A DNA stretch of 38,126 nt from an uncultured Bacilli bacterium (GTDB lineage: Bacteria; Bacillota_I; Bacilli_A; RF39; UBA660). The translations under genes and the position numbers were made by a program. This document shows positions 807 through 25,389 of the stretch, piece after piece. The stretch covers positions 1 through 38,126 of the forward strand of contig CALVIC010000012.1 of assembly GCA_944329365.1 (NCBI GenBank). Reading direction: 5' to 3'. Position 1 is the first letter of the stretch; each line of letters begins with the position of its first letter. The notes under the pieces are model-generated. The model worked only from the letters and a program-made list of their open reading frames with translations, searched no databases and was not told where the DNA came from.

Positions 807-1526
807 TCACATCATTTTTAATACTTTTTGTTTCATAACCCCATCCAATTTATCATAAGTGCTGTCTATAGGTAAACCATTATCACTTAAAATTTCTTTT
901 TTTACTTTTGCAAAATAATTTGGCTTAATCTTCTCAAGTTCACAAACAACAGCTTTAGCTAAATCATTTGTAAAACTAAGCTCATAAACCTCTCTTTTTT
1001 TATACCTAAACCAATTAAATAATGAACTATCATCAACTGTAAAATTTATATCTCTCTTGGCCGTAAGCAAAGCCCCTTTAGTTAAAAACAAATATATTTC
1101 ATATAATTTAAGTAAAAAAACTTCATTTTCTTCCATTTTCCAGCCGAGATTTTCACATATTTTTACTGCCTTATCATCAGTCATCTCGTCAATCTTGTCA
1201 AAATTATTTCTAAGCCACTCATAAACATTTGACCCATCACTAAAATGTAAATCTAATGACCTATAAATATTTCCATAACTAGTTATAAATACATAAGCCT
1301 GAAAAAGTTTATCTTCAAAACTAAGATTACTTTCCCACTGAACATTTACAATAAATAAAGCCTTTTCATCAGTCCTATTATACAATTTATCTTTGTTATA
1401 AACAAGAAACCTATGCATACTAACACCATTACTAAGACTATAATCATAATTTCTAGTTATCCTGCCATTTAACTTAATACATTCAAAGACTTCATCTAAA
1501 GCCTTATCAAATGATAGTCCCTTCAT
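807..1526 (-). CDS. FSDG-repeat protein A (3 repeat units)
   Basis: Unrecognised 239-aa soluble protein with no signal peptide or membrane segment. It has three diverged copies of a ~60-70-residue unit: an opening amphipathic helix of the type SFxDKLxELYxFI, then a short [FL]S[DN]G motif, then an aromatic and a basic helix (pattern xxMxxW[FL]xxNKxKI). The motifs are at residues 31-34 (LSNG), 95-98 (FSDG) and about 162-166 (degenerate). It is the last gene of a four-gene unit; its ATG overlaps the stop of the preceding gene as TAATG, implying coupled translation. The layout (Pro/DG/Trp spacing) recalls the bacterial helicase-associated (HA) repeat, a small helical nucleic-acid-binding module, but that is inference. 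No catalytic motif is visible. Confidence 0.85.
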   Translation of the reverse strand: MKGLSFDKALDEVFECIKLNGRITRNYDYSLSNGVSMHRFLVYNKDKLYNRTDEKALFIVNVQWESNLSFEDKLFQAYVFITSYGNIYRSLDLHFSDGSNVYEWLRNNFDKIDEMTDDKAVKICENLGWKMEENEVFLLKLYEIYLFLTKGALLTAKRDINFTVDDSSLFNWFRYKKREVYELSFTNDLAKAVVCELEKIKPNYFAKVKKEILSDNGLPIDSTYDKLDGVMKQKVLKMM

Positions 1527-3238
1527 TATTTAACCTTTCTTAAAGCCTTTCTACGCATTCTTTTTTCAATTCCTATTATAGTCACATCATAATAATGTGG
1601 CTCCATTTTCAAAATTCTTGCAGCAAGAGCCTGAGCCATTAAATTATCACTCTCATAAATCTTTGACTTAGAAAAATCCAAAAAGTTTCCCACATTTGTC
1701 CCATCGCTAAATCTAACATTATCGCCTCTTCTCGGAACATTATTCAAAGATTTTAAAATAACAAAAGCTTCATATAATTTAGCCTCATAATTTAGAAAAC
1801 ATTCTTTTTTAAATATATCATCACCATCACCATATTTTATATTACAGTAAACATCACAAACATCATCAGAAAAACGTTTACAAGTAATATCACGTTTTCT
1901 CTTACTAATCCACGTTTTCACAAGTGTTCCATTACTAAGCCTAATATTCTTTTCTTTCATTTCGGCAAAACTATACTTATTAAAAAGTGCGGTAACTTCT
2001 TTAATTCCTTGATCAAACGTTATATAGTTAGTAAGTAATTTGTGGGTAATCAAAACTAGTCTATCATCGAACTTTTGTCTAAGTATTATTGCATCCCCAT
2101 TATCATTTACCCATTTAATTAATTCTTTATCTAAAGTGCCGTTATTAATCGAAGAAAACACTTCACTAATCATATCTTCAAAATTAGACTTAAGACTAGC
2201 GTAGTAGCACCCCAAAATAAGTTTAACTCTACTATCATTATACCTTACATAATTATCTATTTTATTTCTATTAGATTTAAACCATTCAGAAAAAAGTTCA
2301 CCAGAATTTAAACTCATATCTTCAAACGGAAACTTATAATTATTCTTATCAAGATAATCACAAACCTCTTGGACAACTTCAGAAAAACTATCCGTATTTT
2401 TAAAATAATAATTCAAAACCTTATTAGACATCGCATTGTTAATTTCCGTAAGTTTAGATTCACTTTCCATAACCCATTCTTTCTTTTTAGTGCCATCATT
2501 AAACCTTATAGAACAATTATATCCATATTTTTCTGAATCAATAATATCATAATAAAGTTCTTGTAATCGCAAATCAAAAGTACTAACCTTTACATTTTTT
2601 TTAGGACTAGCCTTCTCTTGAATAATAGGAGAAGTATCTTCTATAATATCATCAGAAATTTCAACATCACTAAAAAAGGCAGGAGAAACATTTTGAATTG
2701 TCTTCTTTAACAAATCCAAATCCTTGCGATCTTTTTTATTTAAATATATCTTCTCTTTGTTTTTTACCAAAAAATATTTCATAGAAGTCTTACCATCACT
2801 AAAAAATTTATTTGTTCCTGGAAGTTCATTATAATGTTCAATATATGATGTTAACTCACGAACAAAATCAAAGAAATTTAACTTATGAACCTCTTTTTTA
2901 CGTTCCTTAACCACTATAGGTCTTCTATGATTATTAACATTTTTATCCTGATAACTTTTTTCAAAAGAACTAATCATATTACGAAAATTATCATCATATA
3001 TATCTTTTTTCTCTCTATAACCTAAAGAAAAAAATTCGCCATCGATATTTTTAATAAGACTAATTAAAAGATTAATCTCACCATCATTACCTTCATTCTT
3101 ATAGATTGTCTCTAGATTTTTTTTCAAAAAATCCTTCATTGAACTGCCATCTATAAACAAATCACCATCTTCTGGTAATCTATTATTTGTTAAAACAAAC
3201 ATAACTAAATCCTGTATATTTTCATTATTTATTGCCAT
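1526..3238 (-). CDS. FSDG-repeat protein B (six clear units plus one degenerate)
   Basis: Largest member of the cluster, 570 aa from the chosen start. DG-type motifs appear at about residues 28-31 (FIDG), 146-149 (FSDG), 246-249 (FNDG), 310-313 (LNSG), 434-437 (LSNG) and 510-513 (FSDG). A further unit around 350-405 has lost the motif. Repeats 1-2 and 2-3 are joined by charged linkers, and the protein ends in a strongly basic tail (KRMRRKALRKVK). The ATG at 3238 is chosen because a consensus AAGGAGG lies just ahead of it; an ATG nine codons upstream would put that ribosome site inside the gene. It overlaps the preceding gene's 3' end by 14 nt and the next gene by 1 nt. The many tandem modules with a basic tail fit a scaffold or nucleic-acid-binding role, which is inferred only. 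Confidence 0.85.
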   Translation of the reverse strand: MAINNENIQDLVMFVLTNNRLPEDGDLFIDGSSMKDFLKKNLETIYKNEGNDGEINLLISLIKNIDGEFFSLGYREKKDIYDDNFRNMISSFEKSYQDKNVNNHRRPIVVKERKKEVHKLNFFDFVRELTSYIEHYNELPGTNKFFSDGKTSMKYFLVKNKEKIYLNKKDRKDLDLLKKTIQNVSPAFFSDVEISDDIIEDTSPIIQEKASPKKNVKVSTFDLRLQELYYDIIDSEKYGYNCSIRFNDGTKKKEWVMESESKLTEINNAMSNKVLNYYFKNTDSFSEVVQEVCDYLDKNNYKFPFEDMSLNSGELFSEWFKSNRNKIDNYVRYNDSRVKLILGCYYASLKSNFEDMISEVFSSINNGTLDKELIKWVNDNGDAIILRQKFDDRLVLITHKLLTNYITFDQGIKEVTALFNKYSFAEMKEKNIRLSNGTLVKTWISKRKRDITCKRFSDDVCDVYCNIKYGDGDDIFKKECFLNYEAKLYEAFVILKSLNNVPRRGDNVRFSDGTNVGNFLDFSKSKIYESDNLMAQALAARILKMEPHYYDVTIIGIEKRMRRKALRKVK

Positions 3239-4094
3239 ATTTAACTCCTCCTTTATCTTTATCATCTAAATAATCAAAATAATTTGGCTTAAAACTTAAA
3301 ATTACATCAACAGTAAGTCTTGCCACCTCATCATTTTCACTAAGTAAATAAATTCTCTCACGATTATTGTAAAACCAATTATTCATTCGCACACCATCAC
3401 TAAAATCTTCGGTGCTAGGAAATTTCCTATTTTCGTTTATATAAATTAAAAACTCCTTAAGCTTGTTTTCAAAACTAAGAAAATTGGGAATTCTCTCTAA
3501 AATGTATTTAGATTCTGATGTGTCTAACGCTAAAAGTCTATCTTTAACTTTACTTACCCAAAATTTAACATCGACACCATCACTAAACTTATATTTACTT
3601 TTACGATCAAAAACATCATCATTTGCAATTAAAAGCTTATAAAGCTCTGTAACCTTTTCATCAAACGTCAAATACCTTCGATACTTTATACTCTTCCTTT
3701 TTTGATTATTATATATTTTAAGTAATAATGATGCCTCCTCATCTTTTTTTGTAGACAATTCTATTAATTTATCCTTATTTTTACGAAACCAATTTCCCAT
3801 TAAAGAGCCATCATAAAACCTTGCTTTTTTATCGTTTGAAGTCGGAAATTTTCCATATAAAACAAACCTTAACATTTCTTGTTTTTTTAGCTCAAAAGCT
3901 ATTTTTCTTCGGTTATTTAAAACGAAAAATACAAACTTTGCTGACTTATCCGTCCGCTTTGATAACTTCATCTTAATATGACTAAACCAGTCCTTAACTA
4001 AAACCCCGTCACTAAAATTAGTTGGGATAAACAATTCGTAATCCGTAAACACTATCTCATTGGCAAGCTCTTCTATTTTATCATCCGTTTGCAC
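3225..4094 (-). CDS. FSDG-repeat protein C (4 repeat units)
   Basis: 289-aa soluble protein and the most regular of the family. FSDG/FYDG motifs occur at residues 27-30, 93-96, 170-173 and 231-234. Each is followed by an aromatic-rich helix and a basic [NK]xx[KR][IL] stretch, then a helix rich in Ala/Leu, so each unit is about 65-70 aa. The start is a GTG at 4094, preceded by AGGTGAT five bases upstream and lying inside the 3' end of the preceding gene (22-nt overlap). This indicates translational coupling. No signal peptide, membrane segment or enzymatic signature is seen. Family assignment beyond the shared repeat is not possible from sequence alone. Confidence 0.85.
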   Translation of the reverse strand: MQTDDKIEELANEIVFTDYELFIPTNFSDGVLVKDWFSHIKMKLSKRTDKSAKFVFFVLNNRRKIAFELKKQEMLRFVLYGKFPTSNDKKARFYDGSLMGNWFRKNKDKLIELSTKKDEEASLLLKIYNNQKRKSIKYRRYLTFDEKVTELYKLLIANDDVFDRKSKYKFSDGVDVKFWVSKVKDRLLALDTSESKYILERIPNFLSFENKLKEFLIYINENRKFPSTEDFSDGVRMNNWFYNNRERIYLLSENDEVARLTVDVILSFKPNYFDYLDDKDKGGVKYGNK

Positions 4095-4726
4095 TCTTCA
4101 TCACCTACAAATCTATCGGCATTATGAACCAGCAAAGCAATACTGTTTTTATCCTTTACTAGCTTCATCCTCGAAGTTGGATTACCAAGCTTTTTGATAT
4201 TTAAATCTGTCTGTTCATCCAGCTCTCTAAGTTCTTGATATAAAGTTAAAACTTTTTGAATTAAACTTGCAAATTCCGTTTGTTTCATATTATATTTTTC
4301 AAGGCAAGATAACACTTCCTCATATTTTTCTTGTTCAATTCCCAGTAAATAATCGCTTATAAGCATACCTTCCTCATCACCAGTAAATGAACATTCAATC
4401 AACTTTTGCTTATTATCTCTAACAAAATTATACATATTAATCCCGTCCGCAAATGTATCACTTTTACTAGGAAGCCTATTATTTCGAATTACAAAATCAT
4501 ATAACTCTTTTTTTCTCACTTCAAACTTACCTTTTTTATTTTTATACCACTCCATAATCTTAGAAGCCTCAGAAGAAGATAATCCTCTTATTTTTTCTAA
4601 GTTATTGTAAAACCAAAAATACATTAAAACGCCATCGCTAAATTTATCTTTTCTAACAATATTTCCATTTTCCAAAATGAAATTATATAATTCGCTTAAT
4701 TTATCATCAAAACTAAGTTTTTTCAT
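4073..4726 (-). CDS. FSDG-repeat protein D (2 repeat units plus helical tail)
   Basis: First gene of the D-C-B-A unit, 217 aa. It has two repeat units with motifs at residues 29-32 (FSDG) and 92-95 (FADG), each preceded by the typical helix and a short Asn-Arg-Leu-Pro-type turn. Residues ~130-217 form a different, predominantly helical region rich in Glu, Lys and Leu, which could be an oligomerisation or partner-binding segment. A perfect-consensus promoter lies 30-57 nt upstream (4756-4783), and the ATG follows a GATGAGG ribosome site. Protein E has the same architecture of two repeats and a helical C-terminus, so D and E look like the ancestral short form. Confidence 0.85.
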   Translation of the reverse strand: MKKLSFDDKLSELYNFILENGNIVRKDKFSDGVLMYFWFYNNLEKIRGLSSSEASKIMEWYKNKKGKFEVRKKELYDFVIRNNRLPSKSDTFADGINMYNFVRDNKQKLIECSFTGDEEGMLISDYLLGIEQEKYEEVLSCLEKYNMKQTEFASLIQKVLTLYQELRELDEQTDLNIKKLGNPTSRMKLVKDKNSIALLVHNADRFVGDEECKRMIK

Positions 4727-4755
4727 AACCTCATCGCCCCTTTAAAACGTATGTT

Positions 4756-4794
4756 ATTATACTCAAAAACAAATATTTGTCAAATTTACACTAA
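4756..4794 (-). promoter_or_regulatory. Sigma-A promoter of the D-C-B-A unit with shared upstream block
   Basis: On the minus strand a consensus TTGACA (4778-4783) and TATAAT (4756-4761) are separated by 16 nt. The block 4772-4794, spanning the -35 and the bases upstream of it, is identical over 23 nt to 5523-5545 in front of gene E. The downstream spacer and leader differ, so the shared block is either recently duplicated or under selection, for example as a common regulator site. Confidence 0.85.
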
Positions 4795-4795
4795 C

Positions 4796-5479
4796 TTATT
4801 TTTTTATAAAAATCTTCTTAAAATTATCCGAAACTATTTCCCATAAATTATTTCTAATAATTGCCACATTAAATCTTCGTCTATCTAACTTCTTTTTAAA
4901 CTTATTATTACTAAAACCATCTAATAATTTTATAACATCGTTATCCTTAATTCGAAAACTATTTTCAAGTCTATTTAATTCCTGTAATTTTAGTAAAATT
5001 TCCTTTCTAATTTTCTTAAGTTCTTCAATTTCTTCTAAAACTTTAGCTTCTAAAGCCAAATCATCATCTGAAATAACATCTTTTTTATTATAACTATCTA
5101 CTATAAATTTAGCTTCTTCATCACCATTCAAAGCTATATCTTTAATTTTCTTTATATTACTTTGCAGCCATAATCCCATATTCGTCATATCTTTAAACCC
5201 AATATTATCTTTTACATCTGGATATTTATTTTCTCTTACATAAATAAAAGCCTCATGTAATTTAAAGTAAAAATAAAATAAATTTTTATCATTATTATAC
5301 ATATCAACATACTGAGCTTTTTTATTACCCGCATTGGCCTTTTTCTTAATTATCTCGTTATAACTAATTAAGAAAATATTCATATTAGTTCCATCACTAA
5401 ATAAAGTTCTTGTAGAAATCCTTTGACCATCCTTTAACATATTATAAATTTCATTTAATTTTTTTTCAAAATCAGACAT
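4796..5479 (-). CDS. FSDG-repeat protein E (2 repeat units plus coiled coil)
   Basis: 227-aa soluble protein. Repeat motifs are at residues 27-30 (FSDG) and 95-98 (FKDM, where Gly has become Met). Both are followed by the usual Asn-Met-x-x-[FW]-[LI] helix. Residues ~141-172 are a heptad-like Glu/Lys/Leu coiled coil, and the C-terminus is basic. The ATG at 5479 is chosen because GGTGAT lies five bases upstream; a start six codons earlier would overlap that site. It has its own promoter, so it is transcribed separately from the D-C-B-A unit, yet the two promoters share a 23-nt block. It lies directly downstream of dnaJ, separated from it by a terminator. Confidence 0.85.
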   Translation of the reverse strand: MSDFEKKLNEIYNMLKDGQRISTRTLFSDGTNMNIFLISYNEIIKKKANAGNKKAQYVDMYNNDKNLFYFYFKLHEAFIYVRENKYPDVKDNIGFKDMTNMGLWLQSNIKKIKDIALNGDEEAKFIVDSYNKKDVISDDDLALEAKVLEEIEELKKIRKEILLKLQELNRLENSFRIKDNDVIKLLDGFSNNKFKKKLDRRRFNVAIIRNNLWEIVSDNFKKIFIKK

Positions 5480-5506
5480 AAAAATCACCACTTTCAAACC
5501 TTAAAT

Positions 5507-5545
5507 ATTATATAAAAAAAGCAATATTTGTCAAATTTACACTAA
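5507..5545 (-). promoter_or_regulatory. Sigma-A promoter of gene E, same upstream block as gene D
   Basis: TTGACA at 5529-5534 and TATAAT at 5507-5512 on the minus strand have a 16-nt spacer. The positions 5523-5545 repeat 4772-4794 exactly. The upstream edge of the block touches the T-run of the dnaJ terminator. Confidence 0.85.
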
Positions 5546-10392: not shown

Positions 10393-11046
10393 CTATTCAC
10401 TAACCTTGACCATTGCCGGTCTTATAACTTTATCTTTAAATAAATAACCCTTTTGCATAACTTCGATTACCATACCAGATTCCATACCATCGACTTTTTC
10501 AGTTAAAACTGCTTGATGATACTTTGGATCAAAAGGCTTATTCGCTCCGTCAATCGCCTTGACATCGTATTTATTCAAAATATCAACCAAATGACAATAA
10601 ATCATTTTAAAACCTTGTAAGAATTTTGAAAGCTCATCGTCTAGATTATCGTCATCTAAACTTATCGCTCTCTCGAAATTATCGACAACCGGTAAAATCT
10701 CTTTTACCAAATCTTCATTCGCATATTCAAGTCTTTTTGCAACTTCCTCATCCTTACGTTTGCGGTAGTTTACATTATCAGCTTGCGCCCGAAGTAAAGC
10801 TTCTTCTAAATCTTTAATCTTCTTTAAATTCTCCTCGTTTTGTTTTTCTAACTTATCATCATGATTTTTTTTATGCTCATCGTGTTTTTCATGTTTATCA
10901 TAATCATACTTATGACCATCGTGCTTATCATGTTTATGCTTGTCATAATCGTGTTTCTTATGATCATCGTGTTCTTTATAATGCTTATCTTTTTTATAAT
11001 CATCCTTGTCGTGATGTTTCTTTTCTTCTTCGCTCACACCTATCAC
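10393..11046 (-). CDS. grpE: Nucleotide exchange factor GrpE with His/Lys/Asp-rich N-terminus
   Basis: GrpE releases ADP from DnaK. The family core begins near residue 70: a long helix, a four-helix bundle region (YANEDLVKEILPVVDNFERA) and a beta domain with FDPKYHQAV and KDKVIRPAMVKV. Ahead of it lies a ~65-residue tail made almost only of His, Lys, Asp, Tyr and Glu, with about 20 His residues and repeats such as DKHKHDKHDGHK. GrpE N-termini are normally short, acidic and disordered, so this is unusual and could bind metal ions. The start is a GTG at 11046 forming a GTGA overlap with hrcA. A second GTG at 11037 has better spacing from AGGTGAT, so the true start may be three codons later. Confidence 0.95.
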   Translation of the reverse strand: MIGVSEEEKKHHDKDDYKKDKHYKEHDDHKKHDYDKHKHDKHDGHKYDYDKHEKHDEHKKNHDDKLEKQNEENLKKIKDLEEALLRAQADNVNYRKRKDEEVAKRLEYANEDLVKEILPVVDNFERAISLDDDNLDDELSKFLQGFKMIYCHLVDILNKYDVKAIDGANKPFDPKYHQAVLTEKVDGMESGMVIEVMQKGYLFKDKVIRPAMVKVSE

Positions 11047-12180: not shown

Positions 12181-12210
12181 AAAAAAAGATACTATCACTT
12201 TCTTAGTACC
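12181..12210 (-). terminator. Terminator of the leucine-rich-repeat gene
   Basis: A 7-bp stem with one G-U pair (12187/88-12194 with 12204-12210) is followed by seven U residues (12181-12187). The gene's stop codon lies at the edge of the loop. Confidence 0.75.
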
Positions 12211-13799
12211 TTTCTCTTATCAAAACTTTCAAACTCCTTATTACACCCATATCCTATACTTTCAATATTATCGGAAATAATCTTTTGCAAAACCGAATTT
12301 TTATAAAAACAAAAGTTCCCAACTTCTCTAAGATTTGGCGCGTCCAAAATCTCTACATTATCGTCAGAATACATAAAGTAATTTCCCATTTCTACCAAAT
12401 TAGGAAAATAAACTTTCTTAACAAAATTAAAGTTATAAAGGAAATAATCACTTACATTTTCTAGCAAACCAAAATCAAACCTTTCTATTTGCTCCGCACT
12501 AAACATAAAATACTTACCAGTCTCTTTAAGCTTCGGCATATAAGCTTTTTCTATATATTTGTTAAAATACATAAATTCATCATCCGCATTTTCAAGTGAT
12601 GGCAAAAAAACATCTTTAATCTCTAAATTATTGTATAAAAATTTCTTTCCAGCACACCTTAAATTTCTAAAATCATAATATTTAAGATTAGTATTATAAT
12701 ACAAAAATTCATCTCCTACTATTTGAATATTCGGTAAAATTAAACTTTCAATTGTTTCATCATAACTCAAAAATTCATTGCCTAAAACCGAATCCATATT
12801 ACTTTCAAGTCCTTTTAAATTGTTAAACTTATCTAATAAAAGAACTACATAATCACCACTATTAAGTTTTATTATAACATCTTTACTATCCTCGTGTTTA
12901 TAAACTGATATTTCAGAAATTTTTGAAATTTTTTCTTCAAAATCATCAGAAATACTTTTATCGTATAAATACATTTTCTTTTTTTCTAAATCCAAAACAA
13001 AATAATCGATAACCAAAAAATTATCACTGTTAAACTTCTTTACCTCAAAATTATCAATTATCACATTATCAGGACAATAATATATATTGTTTATCTCATA
13101 ATTATATTTATAATACTTACCATCATTTGCCAAAATATAGCCGTCCATTTTAAATAAATTCTCTTCAAATGTTTGAACCAAACCATATTTATGAGCAAAA
13201 GCATAAGTAAGACCTGGTATAATATTATCTAAATCATTGCCAAAAGTCGCATCGGGATTAATTACATGATGATTATATCTATTTGTTATCTTTAACGAAT
13301 TCGTGCCATCCTTAGTAAATTGAATACTTATAACTGACGTCCCATACTTATCATCTCTATATGCGCATGGAAAATCTTCTCTTTTAATATCAGAAACATT
13401 CTTTTTAACCGCAAAAAAAACTCTTGCTTTATTAAGTCTTCCACCATTAAAAGTACAAATTTCTTCACCTTCCGCATAATACTTTCTAAAACTTTGAATA
13501 TCTTCCTCTGTTTTACATTCATATAAATTATATCCAGCCATTTCTAACAGAACCTCCGGATCAAAATCACTCTCAACTTGATTATCCTTATAACTAACCA
13601 AACTATATACATACTCTTTAAACTCTAAAACTCTATCGTTATTTATAATATCTTCACCTAAATTACGGTTATAAGCAAAATGTTCCTCTAAAAGTTTCAA
13701 AAGCAAACCATCAGTTTCCAAAATAGTAGGAAATATTTTCCTGCACAAATGCATCATTACTTCCCCATACTTCTTTTTAATAATTCTAAGTTCATTCAT
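12195..13799 (-). CDS. Leucine-rich-repeat-like protein of unknown function
   Basis: 534 aa with no signal peptide or membrane segment. The N-terminal ~110 residues are helical. Residues ~115-200 contain a block (CTFNGGRLNKARVFFAV, then YGTSVISIQF and NPDATFGNDLDNIIPGL) that I recall from hypothetical proteins of gut Bacillota. The C-terminal third has seven or eight irregular ~23-residue repeats of the type 'FLYYN..i..v.LPNL...gdeFmY', resembling BspA-type LRR_5 repeats and forming a recognition surface. The start at 13799 is chosen because GGTGAC precedes it and a likely -10 (TATAAT, 13818-13823) would fall inside any longer ORF. Its terminator overlaps its stop codon. Function is unknown; protein-protein binding inside the cell is the best guess. 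Confidence 0.85.
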   Translation of the reverse strand: MNELRIIKKKYGEVMMHLCRKIFPTILETDGLLLKLLEEHFAYNRNLGEDIINNDRVLEFKEYVYSLVSYKDNQVESDFDPEVLLEMAGYNLYECKTEEDIQSFRKYYAEGEEICTFNGGRLNKARVFFAVKKNVSDIKREDFPCAYRDDKYGTSVISIQFTKDGTNSLKITNRYNHHVINPDATFGNDLDNIIPGLTYAFAHKYGLVQTFEENLFKMDGYILANDGKYYKYNYEINNIYYCPDNVIIDNFEVKKFNSDNFLVIDYFVLDLEKKKMYLYDKSISDDFEEKISKISEISVYKHEDSKDVIIKLNSGDYVVLLLDKFNNLKGLESNMDSVLGNEFLSYDETIESLILPNIQIVGDEFLYYNTNLKYYDFRNLRCAGKKFLYNNLEIKDVFLPSLENADDEFMYFNKYIEKAYMPKLKETGKYFMFSAEQIERFDFGLLENVSDYFLYNFNFVKKVYFPNLVEMGNYFMYSDDNVEILDAPNLREVGNFCFYKNSVLQKIISDNIESIGYGCNKEFESFDKRKVLRK

Positions 13800-13817
13800 A
13801 TAAGTCACCAGTTCCTT

Positions 13818-13845
13818 ATTATATAACAAAATATATTAAAAACAA
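13818..13845 (-). promoter_or_regulatory. Promoter of the leucine-rich-repeat gene
   Basis: TATAAT at 13818-13823 and a weak -35 TTGTTT at 13840-13845 on the minus strand have a 16-nt spacer. Its position rules out the longer reading of the downstream gene. Confidence 0.5.
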
Positions 13846-23721: not shown

Positions 23722-25389
23722 CTACATTTTTTCTACTGTTTTAACTCCCAAAATACCAAGTCCATTAGTAATTACTGTTCTTAAACATTTAAGTAATCTA
23801 ATTCTAGATTTTCTTAAATCATCATCTTTCTCTTTAATTATATTAACATGATCATAAAACTTAGAAAACTCCTGTGCTAAATTGAATAAATATTTAGTCA
23901 AATGAGCTGGCTCTTTAGTTTTTAATAATGATTCAATAAGTTCTGGGAATTCATACATTTTTTTAATCAAGTGTCTTTCAATATCATTTTCGAATTTTAT
24001 ATCATTATCTAAAGATTCATTGCAATTTCTAAGTAACGAATTAATTCTAACCAAACTGTATAAAATATATATTCCAGACTCTCCTGTAAAACTAACAGCC
24101 TTATTTAAATTAAAATTAACAATCTTTCCTCTAGAAACATTAAGCATTGTAAATTTAATACAGGCATTTCTTAAAATTTTTAAATTTTCTAATGAAATTT
24201 CACTTTTTCTCTTTAAAAGTTCTTCATTTAATGTGTTTGTAACCTCACGCATAAAATCAGTAACCAAAACAACTGTCCCATTAGAAGTACTCATCTTATC
24301 TCCTTCTAAAAGCACATATGAATAACTTACAAGTTCTGGTGCTTTATATCCTAAAATATCCATTACAGCCGCAATTTGACTCATATAAACAGCTTGATCT
24401 TCTCCCAGTACAATAATATTGTTTTCAGAATTTTCTTTCATCTTATAAATTGTATAAGCAATATCCTTAATTGGATATAAAGATGTATTATTTGAACGTG
24501 TTAAAACTAAAACTGGATTTTTAGTTGGAATATCGTAACCAGATAAATCAACATAACATCTGCCAAGCTCATCTTTATGAAGTTTTCCCTTTTTATCAAT
24601 TAATTTTAATATTTCAGATAAATAATGACCATAAACATAATCAGATTCATGTGTAAAAAAATCAAAATGAATATCTAACTCGTCAAATATTTTCATCTGT
24701 CCACCAACACATTTGTCCGTTATATCTTTAAACATCTTAATTGTCTCTTCGTCACCTGATTCAGCCTTTTCAAGCAAATCAAATGCCTCTTGCTCAGTTA
24801 ATTCATCTTCCTTAGCTTGCTTTGAAATTTTCACATATGTATCAAGCACTGATGAAAAACTATCATCTTTTAATCCGTATCTTGAAACACCAATTACAAG
24901 TAAAGCTATTTTTTTACCTAAGTCATTTATAAAATAATGTCGCTTAACATTATACCCAACAAAATCATATAACCTATATATAAAATCACCTATCAAACTG
25001 TTTCTTATTCTCCCAATATGTGGTTAAGCATTTGGATTAATTGAAGTATGTTCAATAAGTAATGACTTCCCTGCACCCTGATTAAATGAACCATATTTTT
25101 TTTGTTTATCTTCTATTTCCAAAATTACATTTTTTGTAAACCTATCATAATTTAAATAAAAATTTACATATGGACCAACAACTTTAATATCAGAAAAAAG
25201 ATTGTCCTTATCATCAAAATTATCCTTAATATAATCAGCAATCTGAATTGGATTTTTATAATTATTATCTCTTAAATTAGAGCACTGTACACAATAATCA
25301 CCAAGTTCCATCTTTGGTGATTCCATAACAATGACATTCTTGTTTGTATCAAATAATTCTTTTATTCCACTTTCAATATAATCTTTCAT
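23722..25389 (-). pseudogene. argS: Arginyl-tRNA synthetase interrupted by an in-frame stop
   Basis: One continuous frame of 555 codons spells an ArgRS. The N-terminal additional domain occupies residues 1-105, then LLIEHTSINPNA, then TAA at 25024-25026, then PHIGRIRNSLIGDF, the class I HIGH-type motif. Next come the catalytic fold (FINDLGKKIALLV; NNTSLYPIKDIAYTI), EGDKMSTSNGTVV (KMSTS loop), and the all-helical anticodon-binding domain to the end (FSKFYDHVNII). In intact ArgRS the stop position carries a Lys or similar (NPNKPxHIGH), so one A-to-T change of AAA is enough. Everything else reads intact. The two halves would need separate translation from a TTG at 24996, which would lack HIGH. 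ArgRS is essential, so this is either a second copy, a sequencing error or a very recent mutation. Confidence 0.85.

Follow-up and report, generated by a model that had tools for sequence, protein, structure and literature searches.

A five-gene repeat array directly follows dnaJ

The DNA analyzed here (the window) is a stretch of 38,126 nucleotides from an uncultured Bacilli bacterium of the gut. On its minus strand, between positions 807 and 5479, five adjacent paralogues (genes 1 to 5) were found to encode 3, 6 (plus 1 degenerate), 4, 2, and 2 copies, respectively, of an approximately 65-residue unit, termed the FSDG unit here; the cluster hrcA-grpE-dnaK-pepF-dnaJ directly precedes this array. 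Gene 5 (P0005; 4799 to 5479, ORF 4796 to 5497) has two units (5285 to 5473 and 5081 to 5278) and a charged tail that reads as coiled-coil-like from the sequence; its product has a pI of 9.35, and its start is probably the ATG at 5479, which corrects the ORF start. Gene 4 (P0004; 4076 to 4726, ORF 4073 to 4726) likewise has two units (4532 to 4717 and 4337 to 4528) followed by a coiled-coil-like tail. Gene 3 (P0003; 3228 to 4094, ORF 3225 to 4094) starts with GTG and encodes a protein of pI 9.3 with four units (3909 to 4085, 3699 to 3899, 3483 to 3671, and 3291 to 3479) that ends in the cap motif KPNYF. Gene 2 (P0002; 1529 to 3265, ORF 1526 to 3265) has six units (3044 to 3223, 2687 to 2881, 2396 to 2581, 2192 to 2389, 1835 to 2023, and 1604 to 1795), the degenerate copy at about 2027 to 2185, and a basic tail; its likely start is the ATG at 3238, which is preceded by AAAGGAGG. 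Gene 1 (P0001; 810 to 1526, ORF 807 to 1526) has three units (1329 to 1517, 1137 to 1325, and 924 to 1121), carries the cap motif KPNYF, and encodes a slightly acidic protein (pI 5.9). Based on the overlaps of 1 to 41 bases between neighbors, genes 4-3-2-1 probably form one operon. Two further unit-encoding loci were detected in the same genome, at C6 (beside uppP) and C8.

Promoter-like blocks were located on the minus strand 5′ of gene 5 (5507 to 5543; AGTGTAAATTTGACAAATATT, with TTGACA-16-TATAAT matching at 12 of 12 positions) and 5′ of gene 4 (4756 to 4792; the same block). A 21-mer within these regions is identical 5′ of both genes and has no exact copy elsewhere in the genome. A role of the duplicated block as an operator specific to the arrays was weighed and set aside: the block occurs at the two FSDG promoters alone, yet no binding site can be claimed from it. 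On the other side of the array, downstream of gene 1, positions 1 to 780 hold an IS-like remnant with broken frames. This remnant had been mentioned in the first-pass annotation as lying beside the array; it does so, is strain-specific (present in the syntenic locus L016, absent from L015), and was rejected as part of the array system.

The repeat unit is real and small, and its duplications are old

A hidden Markov model (HMM) was constructed from 19 hand-cut units, all from the window's own genome, and returned the unit counts given above, with the degenerate copy of gene 2 at 1.6 bits. Since such a profile contains the units that it finds, leave-one-gene-out profiles were used; these recovered 17 of 17 units, the best at 54.8 and the weakest at 15.2 bits. 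Shuffled versions of the proteins (300 per protein) scored at most 9.7, compared with 43 to 138 for the real whole proteins, and the same HMM detected 10 to 11 more units in a relative (G015) that had contributed nothing to the model. The five paralogues and their unit numbers, first read from the sequence alone, were thus confirmed. Pairwise identity among units is only about 20 to 45%, which indicates that the duplications are old.

In the predicted structure, each unit consists of helix 1, a proline-containing loop that closes with F-x-D-G, helix 2 (carrying [WF] and N-x-x-K), and helix 3; a single-unit model gave three helices at a pLDDT of 91.6. A C-terminal cap motif, I/M-x-P-x-Y-F, was present in 14 of 48 last units versus 4 of 151 inner units (P = 6 × 10−7, with related sequences counted separately), and this placement at array ends may be likened to that of organized repeat proteins. 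Searches of the window proteins against Pfam, NCBIfam, PHROGs, and PADLOC produced matches at chance level only.

FSDG units are related to the helicase-associated repeat

Helicase-associated (HA) repeats (PF03457; solved example 2KTA) have long been known mainly as helicase tails with a guessed nucleic-acid role, and their binding of nucleic acid is a Pfam prediction. Our literature search found no functional study of HA repeats and none that tested their nucleic-acid binding. A resemblance of the FSDG unit to this repeat had been proposed from motif spacing, and it was borne out by profile alignment, by fold, and by helicase fusions in relatives, as described below.

When an FSDG profile of 89 rows was compared with HA units from the window's genus by hhalign, values of 77 to 85% (score 23 to 26) were obtained against at most 12.6 for 60 column-shuffled controls; these comparisons are pairwise, and their E-values carry no database calibration. 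A repeat with tool-made alignments gave 72.6%, and own-genome units alone gave just 18 to 31%; for the own-genome-only and wider profiles alike, 0 of 100 shuffles reached the real score. Both families are built of tandem three-helix units of about 65 residues, and their profiles align in register at Pro, [DN]G, W, and N/Q. They differ in that FSDG has F-x-D-G-x-x-[MI]-x-x-[WF] where HA has G-x-x-[LI]-G-x-W, has N-x-x-K in place of Q-R, lacks the final IGxxW of HA in its third helix, and adds the C-terminal cap motif and a sigma-70 fusion. None of the window proteins or units scored above the Pfam cut-off for PF03457, and the window proteins were therefore filed as a sister branch of HA instead of as members. 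The sole relative above that cut-off is a helicase-fused array (G233), which passes narrowly (29.0 versus 28.4 bits) and in which the best HA stretch is the FSDG unit.

The gene 3 product was modeled (pLDDT 81) only from window and near-relative sequences, and the model was used in an unfiltered search of the predicted viral proteins in BFVD. All of the top 10 matches were SF2 helicases or proteins with helicase-associated domains (best E-value 9.4 × 10−4, probability 0.95, compared at the whole-protein level). Whole-array TM-scores were low (about 0.2), and flexible arrays are expected to depress this score; the argument therefore rests on consistency of rank, with the low TM-score to HA proteins counted neither against homology nor as proof of it. 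Foldseek and VIA-align searches of the PDB yielded nothing useful, with generic helical repeats at Z ≤ 5.2 for the array and no match for the single unit; the only PDB chain matched by the HA profile, 2KTA, was absent from the Foldseek candidates. Overall, the profile homology and the modeled fold indicate that FSDG units form a sister branch, divergent and uncatalogued, of the HA three-helix repeat.

FSDG units are fused to helicases and sigma factors in relatives

In relatives from four genera (G233, G331, G864, and G160), two to seven FSDG units were found at the C-terminus of ResIII/DEAD helicases, as HA repeats are on SF2 helicases of this type. The helicase parts of G233 and G331 are 37 to 40% identical to the corresponding parts of helicases from the window's genus whose C-termini consist of six true HA repeats; as judged by these sequences, the FSDG unit occupies the place of HA on SF2 helicases. 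No helicase is attached to, or part of, the window array. Stand-alone HA arrays also occur in the window's genus, so helicase attachment is typical of HA but not required. Two species of the genus, for example, encode proteins of six true HA repeats alone (L125:3860-5599 and L126:4343-6055) between ftsH and parA/parB, a setting suggestive of a DNA-segregation neighborhood. Within the genus sample, genomes with HA repeats and genomes with FSDG units scarcely overlap (both were seen only in G331), which may reflect phylogeny. Part of the G233 helicase protein was also searched against plasmids, with no match.

The second type of fusion is to sigma-70 factors (PF04542, PF04539, and PF04545). In one relative (G236), the gene after dnaJ encodes a sigma-70 factor ending in an FSDG unit. 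In the genus of this relative (g89, distinct from that of the window), six species have a sigma-70 factor with regions 1.2, 2, 3, and 4 followed by one FSDG unit, which was recognized by the own-genome-only profile in all six (11.9 to 22.9 bits, shuffles ≤ 8.0); in four of the six, the gene is directly behind dnaJ. The likeness to the window proteins lies in the unit alone, together with this mostly dnaJ-linked place, as sigma regions 2 and 4 were searched for in the window proteins and neither was found. Among 30 dnaJ loci of the window's genus, a unit-free sigma-70 factor occupies the slot in five and FSDG arrays do so in four, with no locus having both; in other species of the genus the slot held unrelated genes, making it a variable locus. 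The window genome (assembly 94% complete) has no close copy of the slot sigma factor elsewhere; the best match, at 39%, is presumably its main sigma factor. From this gene order, one chromosomal slot appears to take three states, namely a sigma factor, a sigma factor fused to the unit, and a unit array, which fits either a common role in transcription or an origin of the arrays from a sigma-factor tail. A functional link to DnaJ/DnaK drawn from position alone was weakened, since the slot behind dnaJ varies within the genus. As a separate observation, some relatives (L234 and L235) encode several oversized sigma-70-like factors, three of them adjacent in G233, whose C-terminal extensions are devoid of the FSDG unit.

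Arrays vary in copy number and are under purifying selection

By profile search, the unit was found in 12 of the 44 genomes sampled from the window's genus. Across the family, positives numbered 23 among 338 genomes and 19 among 150 genera; in a 392-genome sample of the phylum it was detected in the window's own genome only. These counts are from samples that include incomplete metagenome-assembled genomes, and at this search sensitivity the unit seems restricted to a single family. Of two close relatives that were identified, one is Candidatus Coprosoma intestinipullorum, the genus of which corresponds to GTDB CAG-822 of the order RF39 (PMC8035907). In the syntenic loci (L015 and L016), the order is dnaK-pepF-dnaJ-gene5-gene3-gene2-gene1, with gene 4 missing. 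The divergence from these relatives is mosaic: protein identity is 95 to 98% for genes 1 and 2, 50% for gene 5, and 94% for dnaJ, and the DNA identity of gene 3 is about 65% up to the end of the first unit and about 95% beyond it. This pattern suggests recombination.

Compared with near relatives, the array genes had dN/dS values of 0.12 to 0.44, which argues that they are real genes whose proteins are selected; in the same comparisons dnaK, pepF, and dnaJ gave 0.01 to 0.08. The array genes are thus under purifying selection that is looser than that on these three neighbors.

The largest array seen was in G183 (L191; G183:C4:3000-22500), where nine adjacent FSDG genes with 2, 2, 6, 4, 5, 4, 11, 6, and 5 units (45 in all) share a common C-terminal domain. 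Among these units, pN/pS was about 0.05 at framework codons and about 1.0 at about 15 variable positions, with the highest variability at position 33, at the turn into helix 2, and position 39, within that helix; this variability is compatible with a reading face and also with simple surface drift. The first-pass annotation had proposed expansion by duplication and had suggested an HMM survey of relatives for copy number and neighbors. Copy number indeed varied, reaching 45 units in nine genes, and duplication is further supported by the promoter block copied together with the genes and by the lack of gene 4 in close relatives.

In several species of the genus, a protein of about 600 residues with seven units is conserved at one fixed location (L114 to L118), and its apparent orthologues have four units in L120 and three in L121. 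A second FSDG subtype (FPEELGG-x-LIG-x-WL) forms arrays that lie immediately upstream of the gene for a J-domain protein (L127, L129, and L128:6837-7538), and the unit at C8 of the window's own genome is similar to it.

Proposed function and alternative explanations

We consider it probable that the FSDG proteins of the window are stand-alone multivalent repeat proteins of the HA sister branch that bind DNA and act in transcription or as architectural proteins. Each unit would grip nucleic acid, most likely double-stranded DNA, through its helix-2 side, and tandem units in an extended chain would allow several weak contacts to sum to firm binding (avidity). On helicases and sigma factors, the unit may keep the substrate close to the motor or to region 4, respectively, and free arrays could coat or bridge DNA sites or compete for them. 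The window arrays would be expressed as such free proteins from the duplicated, predicted sigma-70-type promoters. The earlier suggestion of a regulatory locus gained unexpected support from the sigma-factor fusions, though the regulatory role, like the DNA contact, is one that we infer. A point against DNA binding is the pI of 5.9 for gene 1, which is unlike that of a generic DNA binder.

The same value would suit an HA-like fold that now serves as a protein-protein adaptor, with the arrays scaffolding RNA polymerase, sigma factors, or the DnaK/DnaJ system. We regard this as unlikely, while acknowledging that it would account for the neutral-to-acidic members, the coiled-coil-like tails of genes 4 and 5, and the repeated placement beside dnaJ or J-domain genes, and that a sigma fusion could equally signal contact with RNA polymerase. 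Against it, the fusion partners are enzymes that work on DNA and sigma factors joined at their DNA-binding end, and the unrelated genes that share the dnaJ slot in the genus mean that the chaperone link may be incidental. That the likeness to HA is instead convergence on a small helical repeat, with a function unrelated to helicases, would agree with the failure of the window units to match Pfam and with the missing PDB fold match; it is made very unlikely by an in-register profile match far above shuffles, by the relative that reaches the HA cut-off, by the uniformly helicase/HA character of the ten top BFVD matches, and by the presence of the unit in the same slot on the same type of helicase.

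The copy-number variation, the mosaic divergence (gene 5 at 50% against dnaJ at 94%), the expansion in G183, and one helicase fusion located behind a RhuM-like gene (by eye) are features that a diversifying defense or anti-mobile-element locus, with arrays recognizing foreign DNA, might display. Such a locus had been raised in the first-pass annotation and was not supported: neither the window proteins nor P0006 had a PADLOC match at E-values up to 1, no nuclease or other effector was found, the neighbors are mostly housekeeping genes, and several family members searched against phage and viral collections had no relatives there, for which reason no phage origin is claimed. We judge this explanation highly improbable.

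A bolder version of DNA binding, which we hold to be quite unlikely, is that FSDG arrays are modular sequence-specific readers in which a fixed framework presents a few variable residues, on the tryptophan-bearing helix 2 and its preceding loop, that pick the target; single units would confer specificity on an alternative, dnaJ-linked sigma factor, and arrays would serve as free regulators. The near-identical frameworks repeated in tandem, with variation at certain positions that is most evident among the 45 units of G183, are reminiscent of TAL effectors, Pumilio, and PPR proteins; there is, however, no sequence relation to these, binding by FSDG is a prediction, and the likeness is one of working principle and not of membership. 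A recognition code is put forward as a speculative case only.

The FSDG proteins extend the picture of HA repeats to a distant branch that occurs free, in arrays of as many as 45 units spread over nine genes, as well as on sigma factors beside the promoter-binding region. Being small and helicase-free, they offer a direct test bed for the function of the whole HA superfamily, and the near-identical units with variable positions form a natural set in which to seek a recognition code. The results also assign a probable function to gene families that occur in gut Bacilli of the order RF39 and lie outside the Pfam, NCBIfam, PHROG, and PADLOC models.

Other features of the window

An arginyl-tRNA synthetase gene at 23722 to 25389 is seemingly split into two ORFs (25024 to 25389 and 23722 to 24996), which may be due to a frameshift, a pseudogene, or an assembly error; a second argS-like gene was noted at L014:10346-12028. 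Beside hrcA, positions 12195 to 13829 encode a 544-residue protein with BspA-like leucine-rich repeats in its C-terminal part (by eye). GrpE (10393 to 11046) carries an unusual N-terminal extension, about 60 residues long and rich in His, Lys, and Asp, which is kept in relatives (L123 and L124).
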